Source: a bacterium
GTDB taxonomy: Bacteria > ARS69
Direction: 5' to 3'
NCBI GenBank assembly: GCA_025774865.1
Contig: JALGZO010000590.1
Span: 1 to 21,913, forward strand
DNA length: 21,913 nucleotides
Part shown: positions 9,522 to 19,326 of the stretch, one piece after another
How the letters are laid out: each line of letters begins with the position of its first letter
How positions within the stretch are numbered: the stretch's first letter is position 1
Translations under genes and position numbers: made by a program
Notes under the pieces: model-generated
Seen by the model: the letters and a program-made list of their open reading frames with translations, nothing else
What the model was told of the DNA's origin: nothing
The model's database searches: none

Positions 9522-9858
9522 TGCGCAACACCACCAACGAACGCAACAAATTGCAAAGCCGACGCATTGGCTTCGCATGCAATCGAGGCGCCAGGAGCGC
9601 TCGTGGGCGCCTATGTGACCGCTTTGACGGGTACCACGTAAGAAACTCGCTGAGGGTCTTGCTAACGAGAGTAAGAATCACGTTCTTGCTCGTGTCGGAA
9701 CCTCTGATGCTCGTGTCGGTCTCAATAATCCGAGCTCTTTGCTCGCTGATAACAGATCCGGACCCGCGAGCTCTCGCCGACTACCGATCGGGAACCGCGT
9801 ACACCTGGAAGCACACTGGATAACCGAATCCCCCGAAACGACGGAAAAAGGTGTGTTC
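9522..9858 (+). other. Non-coding gap between flhF and fliA, with repeats
   Basis: A stretch of 337 bases, less GC-rich than its surroundings. One frame is open from an ATG overlapping the flhF stop (9521) to 9823, but its codon use is unlike the neighbours and it shows no domain. A possible hairpin pairs GGCGCC at 9587-9592 with GGCGCC at 9606-9611. The 12-mer TGCTCGTGTCGG occurs at 9687-9698 and 9708-9719, exactly 21 bases apart, with shorter TTGCT copies near 9659 and 9739. I found no convincing sigma-54 or sigma-70 promoter. It probably holds the fliA promoter and operator. Confidence 0.5.
9687..9719 (+). repeat. Tandem 12-base direct repeat upstream of fliA
   Basis: TGCTCGTGTCGG is repeated exactly at 9687-9698 and 9708-9719, with a 21-base period equal to two helical turns. 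It lies about 140-170 bases before the fliA start. Same-face tandem sites of this kind often bind a regulator; that role is inferred. Confidence 0.5.
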
Positions 9859-10737
9859 ATGACGAAGACGACCGATAGCGTCGAGAAGCTGTGGCAGGAC
9901 TACCGGAAGACTCGTTCGCCCGAGATCCGCGAGAAGCTGGTCCTCAGGTACGTCTCTCTCGTGAAGTACGTGGCGGGTCGGCTGGCCATCGGATTGCCCC
10001 CGTCGGTGCAGGCGGACGATCTGATCAGTTCCGGGATCCTCGGGTTGATGGACGCCATCGACAAATACGATCTCGAGCGCGATACGCGTTTCGAGACGTA
10101 CGCCGTCACGAGAATCCGCGGCGCCATCCTCGACGAGCTGCGAGCCCTCGACTGGATCCCGAGGTCGACCCGGCAGAAGGCCCGACGCTTGGAGAGCGTA
10201 TACGTCCAACTCGAGAATGCTCTCGGTCGGGCGGCGACGACGGAAGAAGTCGCGAAACACATGAAGCTCTCGACCACGGCGCTGTACGGGATCCTGGATG
10301 AGGTTCGCTCGACGAATCTCGTGTCCCTCGACGAATACGTGCAGGGAAAGGACGGCGACGGTCAGACGCGGCTCGTCGACGCCGTCGAGGATCGCGTCAG
10401 CCTCGATCCCTCCGATCGCATCGACATCGAGGACCTCAAGGAAGTGATGAACGGCGCCATCCTCCGGCTTCCGCCGAGAGAGCGCCTCGTCATCGCGCTC
10501 TACTACTACGAGGAGCTGACTCTGAAGGAAATCGGCTCGATCTTGAACGTTTCGGAGTCGCGCATCTCGCAGATCCACACGAAGGCGATCCTGCGGCTTC
10601 GCGGCAAGCTGCGGAGCCAGATGCGGTCGCTCATCTCGAGTCTCATGGGACCGGGCATCCCGCAGGAGTTCTCGAGCGCCGAGACGAAGGGTGCGCGGGC
10701 GGTCATCGGAGATATCTCGAAGATCTTGTCCGAGTAG
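9859..10737 (+). CDS. fliA: Flagellar sigma factor FliA (sigma-28, WhiG type)
   Basis: A 292-residue sigma factor for late flagellar genes. Region 2 is clear (LVLRYVSLVKYVAGRLA, then QADDLISSGILGLMDAIDKYD and FETYAVTRIRGAILDELR). The next segment DWIPRSTRQKAR is the sigma-28 hallmark. Region 3 lies at about 108-160 and region 4 at about 196-252, with LPPRERLVIALYYYEELTLKEIG and the helix-turn-helix SESRISQIHTKAI. A tail of about 40 residues beyond region 4 is longer than usual and ends in GDISKILSE. The ATG at 9859 is chosen because of AAAAAGGTG just upstream; an open frame further upstream gives no family sequence. No FlgM anti-sigma is recognisable nearby. Confidence 0.95.
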   Translation: MTKTTDSVEKLWQDYRKTRSPEIREKLVLRYVSLVKYVAGRLAIGLPPSVQADDLISSGILGLMDAIDKYDLERDTRFETYAVTRIRGAILDELRALDWIPRSTRQKARRLESVYVQLENALGRAATTEEVAKHMKLSTTALYGILDEVRSTNLVSLDEYVQGKDGDGQTRLVDAVEDRVSLDPSDRIDIEDLKEVMNGAILRLPPRERLVIALYYYEELTLKEIGSILNVSESRISQIHTKAILRLRGKLRSQMRSLISSLMGPGIPQEFSSAETKGARAVIGDISKILSE

Positions 10738-10774
10738 GCCCCACGGCTCGGCGCCGACGAGGAGGGCAGACGCG

Positions 10775-10996
10775 ATGATGGACGGCTCGGATCTCTCCGG
10801 ATCCATTCGGGCGCCGCATTCGACGGGGCGGGTACCGCCCACGCAAGGTCGGCGAAGAAACCTCAGCCGGAGTCGATTCCCGCTCCAAATCGCTCAGGAA
10901 AGTACCGAAGAACCGGAGAAGCAGGCCCAGCCGGCGGACTCCGGAAGGCTGGACGTCACGGAGGAGCGGGGAGGAAGAATCGATGTTCGCATCTAA
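10775..10996 (+). CDS. Small hypothetical protein downstream of fliA
   Basis: A 73-residue polar, basic-to-acidic ORF that I do not recognise. It is supported by a GGAGGG at 10761-10766 with 8-base spacing to tandem ATG codons, its placement 37 bases after fliA, and a 14-base overlap with the next gene. The middle is arginine-rich, the second half acidic, and it ends GGRIDVRI, giving a probably disordered chain with a short strand-like tail. A small partner of sigma-28 or of the following membrane protein is possible, but I see no FlgM signature. Confidence 0.5.
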   Translation: MMDGSDLSGSIRAPHSTGRVPPTQGRRRNLSRSRFPLQIAQESTEEPEKQAQPADSGRLDVTEERGGRIDVRI

Positions 10997-11675
10997 GTGG
11001 GCTCGGCTTTCGTCTGCGGGGCTCGGCGTTCTTCTGCTGGCCGTTCCCGCCACGGCCACCGATCCGAACCGCCTGCAGCTTCTGGCCGCGGAGGCGGCGG
11101 ATCTCGCGTACGGCTCCTCGGGGACGGGGGGGCCGCCTGGGTGGGTGTGGATGCTCGCCATCGTCGGCACGCTCTTCTCCGCGTTCGGGGGGGCGTATTT
11201 CGGGCTGCGACGATTCTCGATCAGCCACGTGCGGACGCACGAAGGGTGGCGGGAGATCACGTACCGGTTCCGCGCGAAGGGACCCCTGCGCTTCGGCGGA
11301 GACGTCATCCAGCGACTCGGAGCCGTGATCGCGGACCTGGAGCAGCTCACGCCGGTGATCGGCTCGCGGCGTCGCTCTCCCACGCCGGCTCCGGAGGAAG
11401 CCCCCCGTGCGCCCGCCGCGCCCAGCGAACCCAAACCACCCGTCCAGTTCGTGCGACGCACCGAGCCCGAACCGACGTCGCCGAGCCCGCCGACGAACGG
11501 TGGATCTGCCCCGAAGCCCAGGCTCCGGGGCCGCGCGGATCGATCGGCAAACTACGAACGCGCCCGACGGCTTCTCGGGGAGGGTCACGACCCGTGGACG
11601 GTTCGGGAGCTGACCGGGTTGAAGCTCGCCGAGCTCGACCTTCTCGGCGCGACCATCCCCGTGGGGACGTCGTGA
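10983..11675 (+). CDS. SwrB-like membrane protein with C-terminal HTH-like domain
   Basis: A 230-residue protein with a signal-like N-terminus (about 9-26), a second hydrophobic segment at about 53-75 (WVWMLAIVGTLFSAFGGAYF), a basic cytoplasmic region, a Pro-rich linker (132-185), and a C-terminal helical motif at about 190-222 (YERARRLLGEGHDPWTVREL, then LKLAELDLL). Membrane anchor, linker and this HTH-like end match the layout of SwrB/YlxL and DUF2802-type proteins. In Bacillus SwrB lies directly after the sigma-28 gene and promotes assembly of the export apparatus and basal body. The same gene order here supports the comparison, but overall similarity is low. GGGGAGGAAG precedes the ATG. 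Confidence 0.6.
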   Translation: MFASKWARLSSAGLGVLLLAVPATATDPNRLQLLAAEAADLAYGSSGTGGPPGWVWMLAIVGTLFSAFGGAYFGLRRFSISHVRTHEGWREITYRFRAKGPLRFGGDVIQRLGAVIADLEQLTPVIGSRRRSPTPAPEEAPRAPAAPSEPKPPVQFVRRTEPEPTSPSPPTNGGSAPKPRLRGRADRSANYERARRLLGEGHDPWTVRELTGLKLAELDLLGATIPVGTS

Positions 11676-11893
11676 AGACGAAATCGAAGACCCTGGGTTC
11701 TCGCGACCCGGCGAAGCTGCGCGGCGCGTTCCCCGCCGACGCGCCGGCCAGCGAGCTCACACCGCCGCGAGACGGCGGCGCTCCGAGACGATGGCCCGAC
11801 CTCGTCACCACGATCCAGGCCCTGCGAGCGAGGTTGCACGTCGCCGCCTCTCGTCCATCCGCGCGTGATCGAGGCGAGGACGAAGAGCGGTGA
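11672..11893 (+). CDS. Small hypothetical protein coupled to the REC-kinase gene
   Basis: A 73-residue ORF. Its GTG start overlaps the previous stop (GTGA at 11672-11675), and its own stop overlaps the GTG of the next gene in the same way (11890-11893). The double four-base overlap and a GGGGA upstream argue that it is translated. The sequence is basic and probably largely disordered, with one amphipathic stretch around WPDLVTTIQALRARLHVA (about 45-62). I recognise no family. Its place in the operon suggests a small flagellar accessory or signalling partner. Confidence 0.5.
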   Translation: MKTKSKTLGSRDPAKLRGAFPADAPASELTPPRDGGAPRRWPDLVTTIQALRARLHVAASRPSARDRGEDEER

Positions 11894-13068
11894 GCTCGCC
11901 CACGTTCCTCCCCATCGGAGAACCGCTCGCTCCCGCGGTCGCGTCCAAACCGCGAATCCTCATCATCGACGACGAGGAGAGTATCCGCTCCACCCTGGAG
12001 GAGTTCATCTCGCGGAACGGGTACGAAGTCGACAGCGCGAGTGACGGCAAGAGCGCTCTCGCTCTCCTCGGCCGGAACTCCTACGACCTGGTGCTTTCAG
12101 ACCTGAAGATGCCGAACGTCGACGGTGCGGCCGTGATCGAATGGGTCGCCCGAGCGCACGCGGAGACGCCGGTCATCGTCATGACCGGGCACGCCACGAT
12201 CGAGAGCGCGATTCACGCGCTCAGAGCGGGAGCGTACGACTACCTCCTGAAGCCGCTCAGCCTCGAAGAGATCGAGCGCACCATCAGAAACTGTCTCGAG
12301 AAGAGTCGCCTTCTGCGCAGCAACGCGGAGCTCACCGAGACGAACGAACGGCTGCGCGAGATCGAGCGCATCAAGGACAGTCTGCTCGCGACCGTTTCGC
12401 ACGAGTTCCGGACCCCACTCACGACAATGACCGGATTCTTGTCGATGATGGACCGCCTTGGAACGGACAATCTGCGACCGGATCAGATGCATTCGCTCGA
12501 AGCGATTCGCGCCAACGTCGAGCGTCTCGACACGATGATCGGGAACCTGTTGACGCTCGTGGAGGCTCAGGCCGGCTGCTACCAGGCGAACCTCGAACCG
12601 CTTCGTCTCGGCGACTTTCTGGATGAGTACTTCCGGACCAGTCGCACGGTGCGGGGCCACGACGGGTTCCGCGCGGAGATCGATGGACCGGCGCGCGAAG
12701 TCATCGTGCGACTGGACCGGTCCCGGTTTCCCCTCGTGCTTTCGAACCTGTTGGAAAACGCGATCAAGTTCGCCCCCGGACCGGGGCGCGTGATCTTCCG
12801 GGCTCGTCGCGAAGAGAACCGTGCTCACCTCGAGATGCACGACGACGGCGTGGGAATCGAACCGTCGCTCAGTGAGCATATCTTCGACCGCTTCACGCAG
12901 GCGGACATGACTTCGACCCGCGAGTTTCCGGGCGTGGGCCTCGGGCTTGCCGTCGTCCGCGTGATCGTCGAGGCCCATCACGGGACCGTGGGCCTCGAAA
13001 CGTCAGAGCTCGGAGGCGCTTGCATTCGAGTGGCGCTGCCCATCTCCGCCGTCCCCGGGGAGAACTGA
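11890..13068 (+). CDS. Receiver-histidine kinase hybrid
   Basis: A 392-residue cytoplasmic two-component protein. The N-terminal receiver domain (about 22-137) has the acidic pair Asp27/Asp28, phospho-acceptor Asp71 in LVLSDLKMP, the Thr/Gly switch at MTG (98-100) and Lys121 in LLKPL. A coiled linker (138-162) leads to a HisKA domain with His171 in SHEFRTPL, then the ATPase domain with the N box around Asn290 (NLLENAIKF), DDGVGI at 318-323 and GVGLGLAVV at 348-356. There is no membrane or PAS domain, so input probably comes through the receiver. Sitting just before fliM, it could feed a flagellar checkpoint or a sigma-54 activator; no such activator is in the window. Confidence 0.85.
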   Translation: MSSPTFLPIGEPLAPAVASKPRILIIDDEESIRSTLEEFISRNGYEVDSASDGKSALALLGRNSYDLVLSDLKMPNVDGAAVIEWVARAHAETPVIVMTGHATIESAIHALRAGAYDYLLKPLSLEEIERTIRNCLEKSRLLRSNAELTETNERLREIERIKDSLLATVSHEFRTPLTTMTGFLSMMDRLGTDNLRPDQMHSLEAIRANVERLDTMIGNLLTLVEAQAGCYQANLEPLRLGDFLDEYFRTSRTVRGHDGFRAEIDGPAREVIVRLDRSRFPLVLSNLLENAIKFAPGPGRVIFRARREENRAHLEMHDDGVGIEPSLSEHIFDRFTQADMTSTREFPGVGLGLAVVRVIVEAHHGTVGLETSELGGACIRVALPISAVPGEN

Positions 13069-13072
13069 ATCG

Positions 13073-14098
13073 GTGGCGGAGACGGTCAGTCAGGCCGACA
13101 TCGACGCGTTCCTGGGCGCTCTTCCGGGCGGAGCGGCGGCGGGATCGACCAACGCGCCAGCCACGCCGGCCTCTCTTCCTTCGAAAGCCAGCGCGTACGA
13201 TTTCAGCCATCCGGATTTGCTGTCGCGCGACCGGATCCGCTCGGTGCATACGCTACACGAAGGGTACGCGCAGGCGCTCGCGAAGCGACTTTCGACCGAG
13301 CTCCTCATGAACGTATCCGTATCGGTGTCCGCATTGGACCACCTGACGTACGGCGAGTTCCTGATGCTGTTGCCGGCTCCGACCGTCCTCGCCGTGATCG
13401 AGGCCTGCGAGCTCGACGGCAACATCGCGATCATGCTCGACCGGGCCCTGACCTTCGCGGTCATTGATCGTCTCCTCGGAGGTGTCGGCGCTCCACTCGC
13501 TGAGGTGCGCTCGCTCACCGCGATCGAGCAGGGGCTGATGGAGCGCGTGCTCCGTCGTTGCTGCCGGGAGCTCGAGTTGGCCTGGGCACCGATCACCGCA
13601 CTGCAGTTCCGGTTGCAGTCGATCGAGTCGAATCCGGAGCTCGCGCGCGTCGTGGGGCCGAACGAAATGGTCGTGCTGGTCACCCTCGAAGTGAAGATGA
13701 GGGGCCTGACGGGAACGATGAACATCTGTCTCCCGTACGTCGTGATGGAGCCGGCATTTCACCGGATGGCACACGGGAGTCGACACCCACGGATCGCGGG
13801 CGGTCCGCCCGGCCGCGGTCGGGAAGCGCTGTCTCGCTCAATGCGCACGAGCCGCGTCGAACTGAACATCGATCTCGGGTCCGCCGACCTCTCGCTCCGA
13901 GAGTTTCTGGAGCTCACACCCGGCGACATTCTGCGGATCGCGCCGCTCGAGGAGCACGGTGCCGAGGCAAGAGTGGAAGGAGTCCCGATGCTCAGCGGTG
14001 TCCCGGGACGCTTCCGCGGTCACCGCGCGTTCGAGGTTCGCGCGAGGCACCCGCGAAACCGGAGCGACGGAGGGGGGAAGAATGAATCCGGGAAATGA
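13073..14098 (+). CDS. fliM: Flagellar switch protein FliM
   Basis: A 341-residue C-ring protein. The N-terminus VSQADIDAFLGAL (5-17) is the conserved CheY-P binding peptide. The middle domain runs from about 42 to 235, with YDFSHPDLLSRDRIRSVHTL, the LTAIEQGLMERVL helix and the AWAPI stretch. The C-terminal SpoA domain (about 258-330) has VELNIDLGSADLSLREFLEL, then PGDILRI and FRGHRAFEVRAR. It begins 4 bases after the kinase gene and overlaps the next gene by 17 bases. It is about 10 kb away from fliL and the first fliN, its usual neighbours. Confidence 0.93.
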   Translation: MAETVSQADIDAFLGALPGGAAAGSTNAPATPASLPSKASAYDFSHPDLLSRDRIRSVHTLHEGYAQALAKRLSTELLMNVSVSVSALDHLTYGEFLMLLPAPTVLAVIEACELDGNIAIMLDRALTFAVIDRLLGGVGAPLAEVRSLTAIEQGLMERVLRRCCRELELAWAPITALQFRLQSIESNPELARVVGPNEMVVLVTLEVKMRGLTGTMNICLPYVVMEPAFHRMAHGSRHPRIAGGPPGRGREALSRSMRTSRVELNIDLGSADLSLREFLELTPGDILRIAPLEEHGAEARVEGVPMLSGVPGRFRGHRAFEVRARHPRNRSDGGGKNESGK

Positions 14099-14912
14099 TT
14101 CGACGAGGACGCACCACGTCCTGTTCGCGGCGTTTGCCAAACGCTTTGCTCGGGCGCAGGGGGCGCGAGGGGGGGGGCAGGGTGCCCCGACCTCGGTGGC
14201 CGAGACCTCGACCCTGGGACGAGATGCTATCGTCGCCCGGGCGGGCTCGGGGGCGCTCTGCGCCCAGACGTCCTGGTGGGATCGGGGCGGGACCGCCACC
14301 GGCTTCCTCCTCTGGGTCGGCGCCGCCGGAGCTCTGCTCGGCGAGGGCCGGAGGTCCGTCGCGGAACTGACCGAAGGAGACGTCCAGACGCTGGACCAGA
14401 GGCTCCGCCTCTGCATCGAAGGAGGCGGCGAAGGGGACCTCGGCTTCCAGTGGTCCGCGCTCCGGCGATTGGCGGCATCCGAGATCGACGACGCCCTGCG
14501 GGGGGCCGGTGTCCCCGATGAAAGCGAGGTCTGCGAGATCTCCCTGGCCCTGGGCGGGGGCGACGTCTCCTTCCTGTTCATGGCCACGCAGCTCCCGTCG
14601 GCCGAAGCCGCCGAGGCCCCGGCCCCGGCACCGGTGTCGGTCGCCTTGCCGCCTGGCAACCTGCCCCATCTCCTCAAAGTCCGAATGCCGCTCACCATCC
14701 GACTCGGATCGACTCGCATGAGCCTCGACGATGTCCTGCGCCTGACGCAGGGGTCCCTCGTCGAGCTCGATCAGCGGGAGGACGAGCCACTGGACGTTCT
14801 CGCCAACGGACGGGTCGTCGCTCGCGGAGAAGTCGTCGTCGTCGACGAGCGCTTCGGACTGCGCATCACGGAGATCGGGACCACCGAGGACCGAGCGCGC
14901 ACAGCAGGGTAG
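14082..14912 (+). CDS. fliN: Second, long FliN/FliY-type switch protein
   Basis: A 276-residue protein. The C-terminal SpoA domain at about 197-266 is a textbook FliN (MPLTIRLGSTRMSLDDVLRL, GSLVELDQREDEPLDVLANG, RVVARGEVVVVDERFGLRI). The N-terminal 180 residues include a weakly conserved alpha/beta region (about 70-170) that may be a degenerate CheC/FliY-like module, but I see no clear phosphatase motif. The ATG at 14082 is chosen because GGAGGGGGG precedes it; an upstream open frame lies inside fliM. It carries a run of nine G at 14169-14177 coding for Gly30-32, a possible slippage site. With the short FliN at 2609 the window encodes two FliN-type proteins. Confidence 0.85.
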   Translation: MNPGNDSTRTHHVLFAAFAKRFARAQGARGGGQGAPTSVAETSTLGRDAIVARAGSGALCAQTSWWDRGGTATGFLLWVGAAGALLGEGRRSVAELTEGDVQTLDQRLRLCIEGGGEGDLGFQWSALRRLAASEIDDALRGAGVPDESEVCEISLALGGGDVSFLFMATQLPSAEAAEAPAPAPVSVALPPGNLPHLLKVRMPLTIRLGSTRMSLDDVLRLTQGSLVELDQREDEPLDVLANGRVVARGEVVVVDERFGLRITEIGTTEDRARTAG

Positions 14913-14957
14913 GCACGGCAGGGTGGGGGGACGCGGAGTCGCCGTCGGGGAATGGGA

Positions 14958-14982
14958 CCCAGGGTTCCTGGGGGAGTTTCCC
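14958..14982 (+). terminator. Possible hairpin end of the flagellar operon
   Basis: CCCAGG at 14958-14963 and CCTGGG at 14967-14972 form a perfect 6-base stem with a 3-base loop, about 45 bases after the long fliN gene. It is followed by a second short G-rich and C-rich pairing around 14971-14982. There is no clear T run, so the call rests on position and stem only. Confidence 0.25.
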
Positions 14983-15091
14983 CGAATGCGGCTCCGCGGC
15001 GCTCGCCCCGGCACCACCGCGGCAGTCGATCCTGACCGACGCTGGCCGGCTCCGGCCCATCTCGACCACGTACGACAGGACGACCCCTTCC

Positions 15092-15107
15092 GGGCACGTG
15101 GGTTGCA
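15092..15107 (+). promoter_or_regulatory. Sigma-54 promoter for the riboswitch-protease transcript
   Basis: GGGCACG at 15092-15098, four bases, then TTGCA at 15103-15107. GG (15093-15094) and GC (15105-15106) are exactly 10 bases apart. Only the first T of the consensus TGGCACG is changed. The predicted transcript start, near 15118, is about 20 bases before the riboswitch closing stem, which is a natural arrangement and raises confidence in both elements. An imperfect CTGACC-like site lies at 15032. Confidence 0.85.
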
Positions 15108-15122
15108 AGGGTCTCGGATCGA

Positions 15123-15139
15123 CGTGCTGTTCAAGCACG
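15123..15139 (+). promoter_or_regulatory. Leader hairpin overlapping the riboswitch closing stem
   Basis: CGTGCT at 15123-15128 pairs perfectly with AGCACG at 15134-15139 around a 5-base loop. Its last two bases (15138-15139) are also the first two of the riboswitch P1 strand, so the two helices compete at their edge. It may serve as a 5' stabilising hairpin or a competing fold. Confidence 0.5.
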
Positions 15140-15217
15140 AGACCGAAAAGGCAACCCTCTTGTGCGGGGGGACGCAAAGCCACGGGGCGCATTCGCCGCC
15201 GGGCCGCCGAAGTCTCG
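15138..15217 (+). ncRNA. Cyclic-di-GMP class I riboswitch (GEMM-I)
   Basis: The core GGACGCAAAGCC at 15170-15181 is the signature of the GEMM-I aptamer. It is preceded by GGCAACC at 15150-15156 (consensus GGCAAACC, one A shorter), which pairs through GGC with the GCC of the core. The 3' part has GCCGGG followed by GCCGA (about 15198-15210), matching the conserved GCCGGG...CCGA of the second arm. CGAGAC (15138-15143) and GTCTCG (15212-15217) close the aptamer with a perfect 6-base P1. A GGCG/CGCC stem lies at 15186-15197. The usual GNRA loop on the first arm is not obvious. No T-rich terminator follows, so control is probably at translation. Confidence 0.9.
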
Positions 15218-15223
15218 CGACAC

Positions 15224-15237
15224 TTCTCTCCGGAGAA
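15224..15237 (+). promoter_or_regulatory. Hairpin over the ribosome binding site
   Basis: TTCTC (15224-15228) and GAGAA (15233-15237) pair around TCCG, and the inner TCTCCGGAGA is a perfect palindrome. The right arm contains GGAG (15232-15235), the best-placed ribosome binding site for the ATG at 15246. The hairpin lies 7 bases after P1, so it is the likely expression platform of the riboswitch. The regulatory direction cannot be read from the sequence. Confidence 0.55.
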
Positions 15238-15245
15238 CGAGGTCG

Positions 15246-16259
15246 ATGCGGACTCAAGGGCTGCCCGGCGCATTCTTCTTCCTCCTGATCATCGCTTGCG
15301 TCTTTGCATTCACGAATGTCGCCCGGGCCGCCCTCGAAATCGTCGGACCTCGCGAGGTGGAGGAGCGCTACATCCACCGGTTCGGCGCGTCGGTGTATCT
15401 CGTCGTCGACGGGCGCCAGTGGGACCTCATCACCGATCCCCACTCGCCCCTCGTCTCCTCACTCGGTGACGGCAGCTTCCATCCGATGCGCCGCGGCCTC
15501 GTACGGGACGCGATCGAGGACGTTCAATCGGAGGGCGTGAGCCTGCACGGCAAGATCCTCATCCTTCCGTACCCGCGACAAACGACCCTCAAGTCGAGCT
15601 GCGAAGGAAACACGATCTTCCTCTCTCCCGGAATCCGCGAGGTCGTCCCCGAGCACGTCCACGCCACCGTGGCCCACGAGATCGGGCACCTTCTCCAGCA
15701 TCAGCGACTGCGCCGGACCGGGGCAGCGTGGGCCACGTATCTCGACCGTCGTGGCCTGAACGAGGACCTCTACCACGCCGGAGCGGCGCACCGCGATCGC
15801 CCGAGTGAGATCTTCGCCGAGGACTTCCGCTTCTTCTTCGGCGGGGCGCTGGCGACCACCTCCGGCAGGATCGAGAATCCAGACCTTCCTCTTCCGAACG
15901 AGATCCCGGGTTTCGAGGACTGGTTCCGTGGCGTCCTCGCGCGGCCGTCTCACGGACTCCTGGACACTTCGGACGCCCGACCCGCCATCTTCCCGAACCC
16001 CTACCGGGCTACCCACGATGACGCGCTTCGCGTGCGCTTCCACGCTGCGGCCCATGCCGGCGCGTCCCACGCCGATATCTTCGACGTCACCGGAAGGCTC
16101 GTGCGGACCGTCCCCGGTGAGGTCGCGGAGACGACATCGGTGGAGTTCCGATGGAACGGCCGCGACGCCTCCGGCCGGAATCTGGCCTCAGGGATCTATT
16201 TCGTTCGCTGGCGCGAGAATCCCGCCGCGGGAACCGCGCGGGTTCAGGTCCTTCGCTAG
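15246..16259 (+). CDS. Secreted ATLF-like zinc metallopeptidase with FlgD-like C-terminus
   Basis: A 337-residue exported protein. A signal peptide covers about 1-28 (hydrophobic core FFLLIIACVFAF, ending VARA). The catalytic domain (about 30-235) has HEIGH at 144-148 (zinc ligands His144 and His148, base Glu145). About 40 residues later comes RPSEIFAEDFRFFF, where Glu188 matches the third ligand in the EFFAEAFR motif of anthrax lethal factor and PPEP-type enzymes. The C-terminal 85 residues form a FlgD-like Ig module (FPNPYRA, IFDVTGRLVRTV, WNGRDASGRNLASGIYFVRW), common in secreted proteins of FCB-type bacteria and perhaps a sorting or anchoring signal. It is expressed from a sigma-54 promoter through a c-di-GMP riboswitch. 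The substrate is unknown; a surface adhesin is a plausible guess. Confidence 0.85.
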   Translation: MRTQGLPGAFFFLLIIACVFAFTNVARAALEIVGPREVEERYIHRFGASVYLVVDGRQWDLITDPHSPLVSSLGDGSFHPMRRGLVRDAIEDVQSEGVSLHGKILILPYPRQTTLKSSCEGNTIFLSPGIREVVPEHVHATVAHEIGHLLQHQRLRRTGAAWATYLDRRGLNEDLYHAGAAHRDRPSEIFAEDFRFFFGGALATTSGRIENPDLPLPNEIPGFEDWFRGVLARPSHGLLDTSDARPAIFPNPYRATHDDALRVRFHAAAHAGASHADIFDVTGRLVRTVPGEVAETTSVEFRWNGRDASGRNLASGIYFVRWRENPAAGTARVQVLR

Positions 16260-16318
16260 CCACATCACGATTGCGTTTTGCAACACGGTCGTTGCGGGTC
16301 GAGTGTCGCGAAACGCAT

Positions 16319-16345
16319 CCGCACGGTCTCGCCCGTGCGGTCTTT
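16319..16345 (+). terminator. Hairpin terminator after the metallopeptidase gene
   Basis: CCGCACGG (16319-16326) and CCGTGCGG (16333-16340) form a perfect 8-base stem with a 6-base loop, followed by TCTTT. It ends the riboswitch transcript about 60 bases after the stop and before the next promoter. The T run is short, as is common in GC-rich genomes. Confidence 0.6.
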
Positions 16346-16391
16346 CGAGCACTCCTCGGCAATCCTCGCCGATCTCGACGATCACGCCAGC

Positions 16392-16407
16392 TGGTACCGA
16401 ACTTGCT
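16392..16407 (+). promoter_or_regulatory. Sigma-54 promoter for the FnIII lipoprotein
   Basis: TGGTACC at 16392-16398, four bases, then TTGCT at 16403-16407, with GG and GC exactly 10 bases apart. The -12 element is a full match and the -24 element differs at two less critical bases. The predicted start near 16418 leaves a leader of about 48 bases before the ATG at 16466. Confidence 0.7.
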
Positions 16408-16465
16408 GCACCTCCCGACGGCTTCGACTCGTAGAACCGTCCCGAATCACGGAGGTGTTCCGAAC

Positions 16466-16882
16466 ATGACCCCCAGGATCCTGCCAGGAATCGTCGCGGT
16501 CGCCGCGATCTCGGCTCTCGCTCTCGCCGGATGCTCCGACCCGAGTTCCACTGGCTACTTGTTCGATACGGCGCCGCCGGCCACGCCGGTGGGTCTCATG
16601 GTCGAGCGGGTCGACGACACGCTGGTCATCACCTGGACCCCGAACACCGAGGCCGATCTCTCGGGTTACCGCCTGTGGCGGAGCTTGGACTATGGGGTTA
16701 CGTGGGTACAGCTCACGAACAACCTGACCTCGCGCACCAGTTACGTCGACGAGCTGCACAGCGCGGCCCTCTACCGCGTGGAGGCTCATGACAATTCCGG
16801 GAACAGCAGCCCGCCGTCGGCTCCGATCGCCTACTACACGCCCTCGGGCGGTGGCGGCAAGGACCCGACCAACCCCGCCTGA
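16466..16882 (+). CDS. Lipoprotein with one fibronectin type III domain
   Basis: A 138-residue exported lipoprotein. The signal sequence ends in the lipobox LAGC with Cys23 as the lipidated residue. Residues 38-128 form one fibronectin-III domain: PPATPVGLMVERVDDTLVIT, then WTPNTEADLSGYRLWRS, TSYVDEL and ALYRVEAHDNSGNSSPPS. The tail is a short Gly-rich stretch. FnIII domains mediate binding to proteins or carbohydrates, so a surface or periplasmic binding role is likely. GGAGGTG sits 8 bases before the ATG. It has its own sigma-54 promoter and lies between hairpin terminators, so it is probably a single-gene transcript. Confidence 0.8.
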   Translation: MTPRILPGIVAVAAISALALAGCSDPSSTGYLFDTAPPATPVGLMVERVDDTLVITWTPNTEADLSGYRLWRSLDYGVTWVQLTNNLTSRTSYVDELHSAALYRVEAHDNSGNSSPPSAPIAYYTPSGGGGKDPTNPA

Positions 16883-16911
16883 TCTCGCGCTCGAAACGCA
16901 TGCGAATCGAG

Positions 16912-16934
16912 GCCCGCGACTCCCCGTCGCGGGC
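16912..16934 (+). terminator. Hairpin terminator after the lipoprotein gene
   Basis: GCCCGCGAC (16912-16920) and GTCGCGGGC (16926-16934) form a perfect 9-base stem around a 5-base loop, 30 bases after the stop. It is followed by TTCGTCG, not a strong T run. Stem strength and position support the call. Confidence 0.6.
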
Positions 16935-17028
16935 TTCGTCGTATCCGGCTCGCTTGACCGCTGACCGAGATGGCGCTAACGTGTTTCTTCAGCGTTATTT
17001 GCCTCTCCCTGTGGTGCGAGACCCTTCC

Positions 17029-19326
17029 ATGCTCCCAACCCGAGTCTCGGCCGCGCTCGTCCTCGCGGCGACCGTTGCTGCCGCCGAGCGGCCGGCAGCG
17101 GCCGGAACCCTCGAGCCCCCGTTCGACCTCTACGAGGCGGGACCCGCGGCCGCAGAGGGGCTCGCGGCTGCAGCCGCCAACGTCGGCCCGTGGAAGGTGC
17201 TTCAGCGGGAGACGAAGGACCGACGCACCTGGCTCCTCCTCGCGCTTCCCGACGGTCTCGCCGGGGGAGAGCTCTCGGGCCTCGGACGGCCGCGGTATCT
17301 GGGGCGGGTGCGCCCCGGGGAACAGATCATCTTCGCCGCCCCGAGCGACCGCCGCGGGGACCGGCTCCGGACCGGGCGTTCGGTGACGATCGCTCCTTCC
17401 GGGGCGACCGTCCTCGTGACGACAGAACCGACGGACGAGCTCGCGCGGCGCGCCCATGCGGGCTTTCACGTCCTGGATCGCGACGTCCCGCTCACCCCGC
17501 CCCGACCGCCGGGTCCGCCCGCCGGAATCCGGCCGCTCCTCGAGCACGCCCTGGCCCTGGAAACGCCGGGGTGGGAGCTGCGCGCAGCCGTCGCGGATTC
17601 CTCCGTCGCATTCCTGCGCGACCAAGTCGACAGCGCCAACCTCCTTCGCTACGTCGACGGACTCTCCCTCGACGGCGGCATCGCGTCATCGAGCCGGTGG
17701 TGGGCCGACCCGCGGACCGAAGGCGTCAAGGCGGACTCGATCGTGATCTGGCTCGGGGCGGCCCTCGGTCTCGAGAACGTCCGCAAGCATCGCTTCGAAC
17801 TGGAAGGCCGATCGGTCCACAACATCATCGCGAAGCACGCCTCACCGAATCCGGACGCCGGTGCGATCCTGGTGACCGCCCACTACGACGCGACCGGCAA
17901 GCTCAGTTCTGCCGTGAAGCTGTGCGACGAGGTACCCCGGCCTCCGGGCTGCAACTGCCTGGCGGATCCCACCGTGATCGACACTCTCACCGCCTGCCAG
18001 TGGAACGAGGACACGGATCCTGCGCCCGGCGCGGACGACAACGCGTCGGGGGTGGCGGCGATGATCGAGACGGCTCGGGTTCTCGCCGACGTCACGTTCG
18101 ACTTCGACATCTACTACGTGGCATTCCAGGCGGAGGAGAAGGGCCTGATCGGGTCGGCCGCTTTCGCCGACTCGATCGCGAGCGATACCATCGACCAGGA
18201 CGTCTTCGCCGTCCTGAACATGGACATGCTCGGGTACCGGAACGCCCCGGGCGAACACGTCGACATCGTCGCGAACGAGACGTCGGAGTGGTTCGCGGAC
18301 TGGATCGTCGAGACGGCCACGCGGTTCGTGCCGGTTTCGGCGGAGAAGATCGTGACGATCTTCGGGCGAAGCGACCACGCGAGCTTCTGGCGCGTGGGGA
18401 TCGACGGCGTTCTCATGATCGAGAACATCGATCTTCCGTATCCCGAGTACCACACCTTCCAGGACCTCTGGAACAACGACTGGCCGGCCGGCGAGGAGCT
18501 CTCGGAGCTTCAGCTCCGGTACGCCACGCAGCTCGCCGTGACCACGCTCGGACGTTTCGCCGTCCACTACGAAGACCCCGACCTCGCGATTCCCGCCGGC
18601 GAACTGGTGGCGAGACCGGTGTCGAGCATCGACTTCGAAGCCGGCCGCGACATTCTCCTCCAGGCCCGCGTCCACAACTTCGGAACGTCTCACCTCACGT
18701 TCCAGAAGACGACGGTCGAGTCGTTGACGGCGCGCGTCCAGTTCTTCGACGGCGACCCGGCGGGCAACCGCCTCATTGCCGAGGAGACGCGAACCCAGTT
18801 CTTTGCGTCCGGGGGCGTCGTCGTGTTCGAGGGGATCTGGGAGACCAGGCCGGGGCAGGAGGGCTTTCACGAGATCCACGCAGTGGTCGAGGGCCTCGAC
18901 CCCGGTTACGCGCAGCGCGAGGAATTCACCTCGACCACGAACAACCGCTCGTCGGTCGAGTTCTTCCTCCAGAGCCCCCGAGACGCCGGACCGCGCCTGC
19001 TCGAGCTGTACGCGTACCCGAACCCGGTGATCGGCGACATCTCCAACCTGACTTTCTACTACGAGCTCACGGACGTCGCCGGAGTCAGCATCGACGTCTT
19101 CGATCTCGAGGGCAACTGGGTCGGGGCGTTCGGCGCGGAGGCCAACCAGAACCAGGAGGGGAGCCGTCCGGGCGCGAACCGCATCACCGGAGACCTGATC
19201 CGGGACGACAACAAGGACCCGATCACGCTGAAGAGCGGCGTATTCGTCTACACGGTGCGTGTCTTCGACCGCGACAGTGGTGCCGTCACCGACACGAGGA
19301 AGGGGAAATTCGCCATCGTCCAGTGA
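17029..19326 (+). CDS. Secreted M28 zinc peptidase with FlgD-like C-terminus
   Basis: A 765-residue exported enzyme with a signal peptide at about 1-26. An N-terminal region of about 230 residues has no clear family. The M28 peptidase domain (about 255-515) shows all metal ligands in order: His285 in TAHYD, Asp336 in GADDNASG, Glu369/Glu370 in FQAEEKGLIGS (catalytic Glu and ligand), Asp399 in NMDMLGY and His475 in EYHTFQD. This di-zinc family cleaves N-terminal amino acids or short peptides. Beta-rich, CARDB-like sequence follows (about 530-650), then a FlgD-like end from YAYPNPVIGD to the C-terminus. An insertion at about 293-328 carries four cysteines. The start has a weak ribosome binding site; GTG codons at 17011 and 17014 are alternatives. 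Substrate unknown. Confidence 0.85.
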   Translation: MLPTRVSAALVLAATVAAAERPAAAGTLEPPFDLYEAGPAAAEGLAAAAANVGPWKVLQRETKDRRTWLLLALPDGLAGGELSGLGRPRYLGRVRPGEQIIFAAPSDRRGDRLRTGRSVTIAPSGATVLVTTEPTDELARRAHAGFHVLDRDVPLTPPRPPGPPAGIRPLLEHALALETPGWELRAAVADSSVAFLRDQVDSANLLRYVDGLSLDGGIASSSRWWADPRTEGVKADSIVIWLGAALGLENVRKHRFELEGRSVHNIIAKHASPNPDAGAILVTAHYDATGKLSSAVKLCDEVPRPPGCNCLADPTVIDTLTACQWNEDTDPAPGADDNASGVAAMIETARVLADVTFDFDIYYVAFQAEEKGLIGSAAFADSIASDTIDQDVFAVLNMDMLGYRNAPGEHVDIVANETSEWFADWIVETATRFVPVSAEKIVTIFGRSDHASFWRVGIDGVLMIENIDLPYPEYHTFQDLWNNDWPAGEELSELQLRYATQLAVTTLGRFAVHYEDPDLAIPAGELVARPVSSIDFEAGRDILLQARVHNFGTSHLTFQKTTVESLTARVQFFDGDPAGNRLIAEETRTQFFASGGVVVFEGIWETRPGQEGFHEIHAVVEGLDPGYAQREEFTSTTNNRSSVEFFLQSPRDAGPRLLELYAYPNPVIGDISNLTFYYELTDVAGVSIDVFDLEGNWVGAFGAEANQNQEGSRPGANRITGDLIRDDNKDPITLKSGVFVYTVRVFDRDSGAVTDTRKGKFAIVQ

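Follow-up and report, generated by a model that had tools for sequence, protein, structure and literature searches.

We analyzed a stretch of 21,913 nucleotides (nt) from a bacterium of the lineage ARS69 (contig C594 of a 785-contig genome; this whole stretch is referred to here as the window), in which a flagellar gene cluster (flhA, flhF, a FliA-like sigma factor gene, fliM, and fliY) is followed by a sigma-54 promoter site, a class I cyclic di-GMP (c-di-GMP-I or GEMM-I) aptamer, and a gene for an exported protease. We found that the last three elements constitute a real regulatory unit, which is conserved across four genera. The comparison within the phylum covered five genomes from five genera, four of which (the window's own, G001, G003, and G004) carry the protease. 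The homologues are 57, 49, and 46% identical to the window protein over the query stretch; for the catalytic domain, the values are 54, 46, and 43%. RpoN and GGDEF proteins were found in all five genomes. A preliminary description of this DNA, made from the letters alone, had proposed the same three-part unit. It was borne out, and none of the findings named there as counterevidence (no significant GEMM-I match, loss of the aptamer core in homologous loci, or a protease fold without the Glu188 ligand) was encountered.

The promoter and the aptamer

The promoter site, GGGCACGTGGGTTGCA, is located at positions 15092 to 15107 of the plus strand (GG at 15093-15094, GC at 15105-15106), 154 nt before the start codon of the protease gene, and would place the start of transcription at about position 15118. 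Its consensus score of 21 out of 22 is the joint highest in the window, where the other site with this score is intragenic, and makes it the best intergenic sigma-54 site. The element GGCACG-N4-TTGC recurs at all four phylum loci, at -150 to -173 from the protease start codon. The GG-N10-GC promoter of the preliminary description is thus upheld, with the flanking consensus, conservation in four phylum genera, and RpoN encoded in the genome. In other phyla, a sigma-54-like site with a score of at least 18.5 precedes the protease gene at 30 of 54 loci, versus 3.2% of control stretches. Given this enrichment, control by sigma-54 looks both old and widespread, whereas the aptamer looks like a local addition.

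The aptamer, including its closing stem P1, spans positions 15138 to 15217 of the plus strand. The Rfam model RF01051 matches positions 15140 to 15211 over its complete length (39.7 bits, E value 9.9e-5; gathering score 35), and CGAGAC (15138-15143) pairs with GTCTCG (15212-15217) to form P1, in agreement with the aptamer and stem originally described. This is the sole match above the cut-off in the window genome; G003 (39.1 bits) and G004 (35.9 bits) likewise have a GEMM-I aptamer above the cut-off before the protease, in each case the only one found in the genome. The G001 aptamer, also before the protease, scores 25.7 bits, best with the GGC variant model, which is below the Rfam cut-off; listed by locus, the aptamers of L011 and L013 are above the cut-off and that of L012 is below it. 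The core elements GGCA, CGCAAAGCCACGG, and GCCGGGYYGCCGA are retained at four of four phylum loci, the outcome that the preliminary description had expected of homologous loci. In relatives, P1 reads CGAAAC/GTTTCG, with one pair altered on both sides (A-U versus G-C) and pairing kept, a covariation that is modest but consistent among the four sequences.

The exported protease and its predicted fold

The open reading frame behind the aptamer (15246 to 16259, plus strand; ATG at 15246, stop at 16259) encodes a predicted exported zinc protease of 337 amino acids, which consists of a hydrophobic N-terminal segment, a catalytic domain (residues ∼29 to 240), and a C-terminal tail (residues ∼248 to 337). 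The two motifs by which it had been recognized as a metallopeptidase are both present and invariant in 37 of 37 family members: HEIGH (residues 144 to 148, positions 15675 to 15689), with His144 and His148 as predicted zinc ligands and Glu145 as general base, and E188IFAED (residues 188 to 193, positions 15807 to 15824), with Glu188 as predicted third ligand. The invariant residues are His144, Glu145, His148, Glu188, and Glu192, and the spacing of 40 residues from His148 to Glu188 follows, in all 37 members, the pattern of the anthrax toxin lethal factor family (ATLF, M34), namely HExxH with a glutamate ∼40 to 45 residues on. From these motifs we infer zinc proteolysis by the exported protein.

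Scans with Pfam and NCBIfam assigned the tail and left the catalytic domain without an assignment. The ATLF model PF07737 did not match the window protein at an E value of 1 and matched 5 of the 37 members below its cut-off (best E value, 0.0021); a weak profile match places Glu188 opposite Glu735 of lethal factor. In PPEP-3, the catalytic Tyr190 stands seven residues before the ligand Glu197, and PPEPs have a glutamate tandem (PMC12828418). The window protease has Ala at the position of this tyrosine (residue 181) and Ser at residue 187 (His in 30 of 37 members), so that the tandem is absent. Another residue, His182, six positions before Glu188, is found in 36 of 37 members; three of the clostridial relatives with GEMM-I aptamers have Tyr at its position.

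A model of the catalytic domain (residues 22 to 246) built from the 37 homologues reached a pLDDT of 93 and a pTM of 0.90. This model was needed for structure searches, given that Foldseek results with a full-length model from four sequences were dominated by the tail. Searched against the PDB, it retrieved lethal factor, PPEP-1, PPEP-2, or PPEP-3 in all top 44 rows. In a structural aligner, the best matches, lethal factor and PPEP-1, PPEP-2, and PPEP-3, had Z scores of 8 to 9 (9.3 for lethal factor over 147 residues at 3.8 Å, 8.2 for PPEP-1), which are barely over the level common by chance; the fold argument therefore relies on the agreement of the whole Foldseek list and not on the Z value. 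The kinship with M34 and PPEP proteins suggested earlier has moderate backing from the predicted fold and is not supported as membership by sequence, as judged by the PF07737 cut-off, the tyrosine, and the tandem. We therefore describe the protease as ATLF-like in its predicted fold and, since it has neither the tyrosine of ATLF/PPEP enzymes nor the glutamate tandem of PPEPs, place it in a separate, new subfamily.

The tail (positions 15987 to 16256, plus strand) matches the FlgD_ig model PF13860 above its cut-off (E value 1.3e-8) and the type IX secretion system (T9SS) model PF18962 below it (E value 1.3e-4; 22.6 bits, cut-off 27), and it resembles the C termini of PorZ and PorU as well as FlgD. 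Nearly all of the ∼150 places that the protease query matches in its own genome are matched via the tail. What had been read as a sign of a different export or anchoring route is hence a generic, T9SS-like tail. The T9SS translocon family SprA (SprA_N) is present in five of five phylum genomes, and a T9SS-like route of the protease to the cell surface is likely.

Proposed mechanism and competing functions

Between aptamer and start codon lies the putative expression platform (positions 15218 to 15245, plus strand) with the ribosome-binding sequence GGAG at 15232-15235. A terminator scan found no terminator in the leader. The hairpin over GGAG (15224-15237) that the preliminary description had listed as a feature can be drawn, but we gave it no weight, as it is no more stable than shuffled sequences (z score, +0.4; at the four loci +0.4, -0.4, -0.4, and +0.9) and is not conserved. 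The 3′ half of the window aptamer is complementary to the start region (z score, -3.4; 1 of 300 shuffles); the corresponding z scores are -1.6 in L013 and about 0 in L011 and L012. The free RNA of the window is thus predicted to hide the start codon, as in an ON switch acting at translation, but two of the three relatives differ, and we do not commit to a direction.

In the mechanism that we propose, transcription from the sigma-54 promoter would depend on an RpoN activator and produce an mRNA with a 128-nt leader, containing the c-di-GMP-I riboswitch, followed by the exported zinc protease. Binding of c-di-GMP to the leader would tune the output, probably at translation because no terminator was seen. 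The protein would be exported by Sec and probably directed to the surface by its tail, via a T9SS-like route, where it would cleave surface or extracellular proteins. We consider this mechanism as a whole probable, at roughly 70%.

Several observations weigh against it. All data come from metagenome-assembled genomes, and the carriers in the phylum are just four genomes, the protease not being found in G002 (82% complete). Aptamer scores are modest, at 35.9 to 39.7 bits, and lower still in G001. The Foldseek match is of moderate quality (E values from 1.5e-3, TM-scores of 0.33 to 0.44), and a Z score near 8 can arise by chance. Finally, neither folding nor duplex energies revealed an expression platform common to the four phylum loci.

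Two syntenic neighbors are encoded downstream of the protease. The first (16466 to 16882, plus strand) is an FN3-like lipoprotein with a lipobox recognized by inspection and weak FN3-type matches; its gene also follows the protease gene in L011, L012, and L013. A second sigma-54-like site (16392 to 16407, plus strand; score 19.5 out of 22) precedes it and is not clearly conserved in relatives. We also noticed, 3′ of the protease gene at 16319-16340, an inverted repeat of 8 bp, rich in GC and with TCTTT behind it, which looks like a terminator by eye and was not called by the scan. The second protein (16900 to 19326, plus strand) is an exported M28 family peptidase (PF04389, E value 4.8e-32), whose gene is found in synteny in L016 and L017.

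These neighbors are the basis of the strongest alternative, in which the protease would be a nutritional or envelope-maintenance enzyme, tuned by c-di-GMP, that digests surface proteins together with the M28 peptidase. The conservation of an exported peptidase and a lipoprotein next to it fits such a role, as does a tail as widespread in the genome as this one. A dedicated riboswitch combined with sigma-54 control would, however, be unusual for a housekeeping protease, and the invariant motifs suggest a defined cleft, so we see this alternative as a real possibility, though not the one we would expect.

We find it unlikely that the protease gene is one of the late flagellar genes and that its product frees adhesins at a motility switch. 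PPEP-1, which cleaves adhesins and is controlled by a class I c-di-GMP riboswitch, provides the precedent (PMC6200980). In the window and in G004, moreover, the protease gene adjoins fliY or fliM/fliY, and genes for sigma-54 and a FliA-like sigma factor are nearby. Against this, G001, with an estimated completeness of 100%, has no FlhA and no fliM-fliY at the locus, yet it keeps the sigma-54 site, the aptamer, the protease, and the downstream lipoprotein. Among 47 Eisenbacteria genomes, 30 carry the protease and 15 have FlhA above the cut-off, so that many have the protease without FlhA; conversely, G002 has FlhA and no protease was found in it. Because the FlhA-less G001 keeps the unit, it is not a flagellar accessory and has no fixed bond to flagella, and the motility link drawn in the preliminary description is not supported in the form given there. 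Nor do our data support cleavage of adhesins or of Pro-Pro sites. The lipoprotein, a possible substrate, has the sequence DTAPPATP after its lipobox, but a D-x-x-PP-x-x-P pattern often precedes FN3 domains, so this is a mere lead. As a separate observation, locus L016 of G001 (9641 to 17252, minus strand) places flagellar-type regulators beside the protease in this FlhA-less genome: the unit is adjoined by a FliA-like sigma factor, a hybrid response regulator/kinase, a methyl-accepting chemotaxis protein-like protein, and, in keeping with the proposed mechanism, an NtrC-type sigma-54 activator with a histidine kinase and a YcgR/PilZ protein.

A decayed relic, or an aptamer for another dinucleotide such as cyclic GMP-AMP (cGAMP), would fit the modest scores, the P3 stems that are short in the window and in G004, and the one copy below the Rfam cut-off, but it is improbable, given that the core is kept although the proteins are just 43 to 54% identical, that P1 covaries, and that the position which we take to set c-di-GMP versus cGAMP binding (G20 of Vc2) reads G in the window aptamer.

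Recurrence in other phyla and relation to known systems

A scan of genome contigs with the single protease sequence found no relatives, and a plasmid search gave no match. Scanning named genomes with the 37-member alignment yielded 73 loci, which belong to Eisenbacteria, Krumholzibacteriota, Latescibacterota, and UBP1 and, at a greater distance, to Clostridia. In the searched Eisenbacteria genomes, no GEMM-I was found next to the protease gene, nor was one found at the gathering score in five further loci. In the Eisenbacteria family f265 (L066 and L067), GEMM-I precedes genes whose products are small exported proteins that begin in an FN3-like manner. Sigma-54-type sites reading GGGAAC-N4-GTTGCA are strongly conserved before the protease gene in Eisenbacteria, Krumholzibacteriota, and Latescibacterota, for example, in L084 to L104; the leaders are short and have no recognized aptamer.

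Four clostridial relatives (L136 to L139; hmmsearch E values of 1e-34 to 7e-39) have canonical GEMM-I aptamers of 72 to 93 bits directly upstream of the protease gene. L138 (5594-5888) and L139 (213-521) have two in tandem, the first of which is followed by a terminator. By inspection, the intrinsic terminators after the L137 aptamer and the first L138 aptamer contain CAACCC, complementary to GGGTTG of the aptamer, which predicts OFF switches; the class I c-di-GMP switches of Clostridioides difficile are OFF switches as well (PMC6200980).

A covariance model built from the four phylum aptamers found further matches directly upstream of the protease gene in L129 (5751-5833), L134 (5749-5828), L123 (4255-4334), L131 (5678-5762), and L132 (1408-1492), with E values of 1e-4 to 0.4 over 764 kb and 7e-6 to 0.02 when searched alone. 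L123 is almost identical to L134, so the set amounts to four independent sequences. Rfam at an E value of 1 did not recognize these GEMM-like RNAs, which share CCGA-AAAGG and GGGCTGCCGAAG and have a shortened P2 that lacks the usual internal loop. Their 3′ half, GGGCTGCCGA, at the same time serves as the 5′ arm of a terminator (in L131, GGGCUGCCGA...UCGGCAGCCC-UUUUU, -26.8 kcal/mol), and this double use predicts an ON switch. The L131 RNA is preceded by a sigma-70-like promoter. These RNAs may represent a new riboswitch class or a variant.

On a tree of the 73 proteins, built with a quick method and containing some long branches, the aptamer labels call for three changes, and strongly supported branches force at least two of these; read this way, the pairing of protease and aptamer needs to have arisen at least twice. 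We tentatively propose, at a little under even odds, that a single family of exported proteases with a lethal factor fold gained RNA sensors of c-di-GMP on at least two and probably three occasions: as GEMM-I with sigma-54 control in the window's phylum, as one or two canonical GEMM-I aptamers with OFF-type terminators in Clostridia, and as GEMM-like RNAs, not recognized by Rfam and with ON-type terminators, in a third clade. If true, using c-di-GMP to control surface proteolysis would be a general strategy, whose sign would be opposite in different lineages.

A pairing of c-di-GMP riboswitch and protease outside C. difficile was not found in the open-access literature. In C. difficile, PPEP-1/Zmp1 is under the class I riboswitch Cdi-1-12 (PMC6200980). 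That a Gram-negative candidate phylum and other Clostridia follow this logic too suggests convergent wiring and not the quirk of one species, and the analysis adds a new protease subfamily in Eisenbacteria, Krumholzibacteriota, Latescibacterota, and relatives. By analogy with PPEP-1, the one known riboswitch-linked protease that releases adhesins, we hypothesize that the window protease releases surface proteins.

Like PPEP-1, the window protein is a predicted exported zincin with HExxH, a downstream glutamate, and a predicted fold of moderate similarity, encoded behind a leader with a class I c-di-GMP aptamer. Unlike PPEP-1, it belongs to a phylum with a different envelope, has a sigma-54 promoter and a T9SS-like C-terminal tail, and with them another promoter class and a probably different export route, and has neither the tyrosine seven residues before the Glu ligand nor the Glu-Glu tandem; its leader also differs from the class I OFF switches of C. 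difficile in having no terminator. Lethal factor is the best fold match, with HExxH and Glu aligned in the weak profile match, but the window protein is a single exported enzyme without toxin architecture. The aptamer, in turn, matches GEMM-I (RF01051) over its full length and above the gathering score, and it departs from typical members in its short P3, its low score, and a translational-looking platform behind a sigma-54 promoter.
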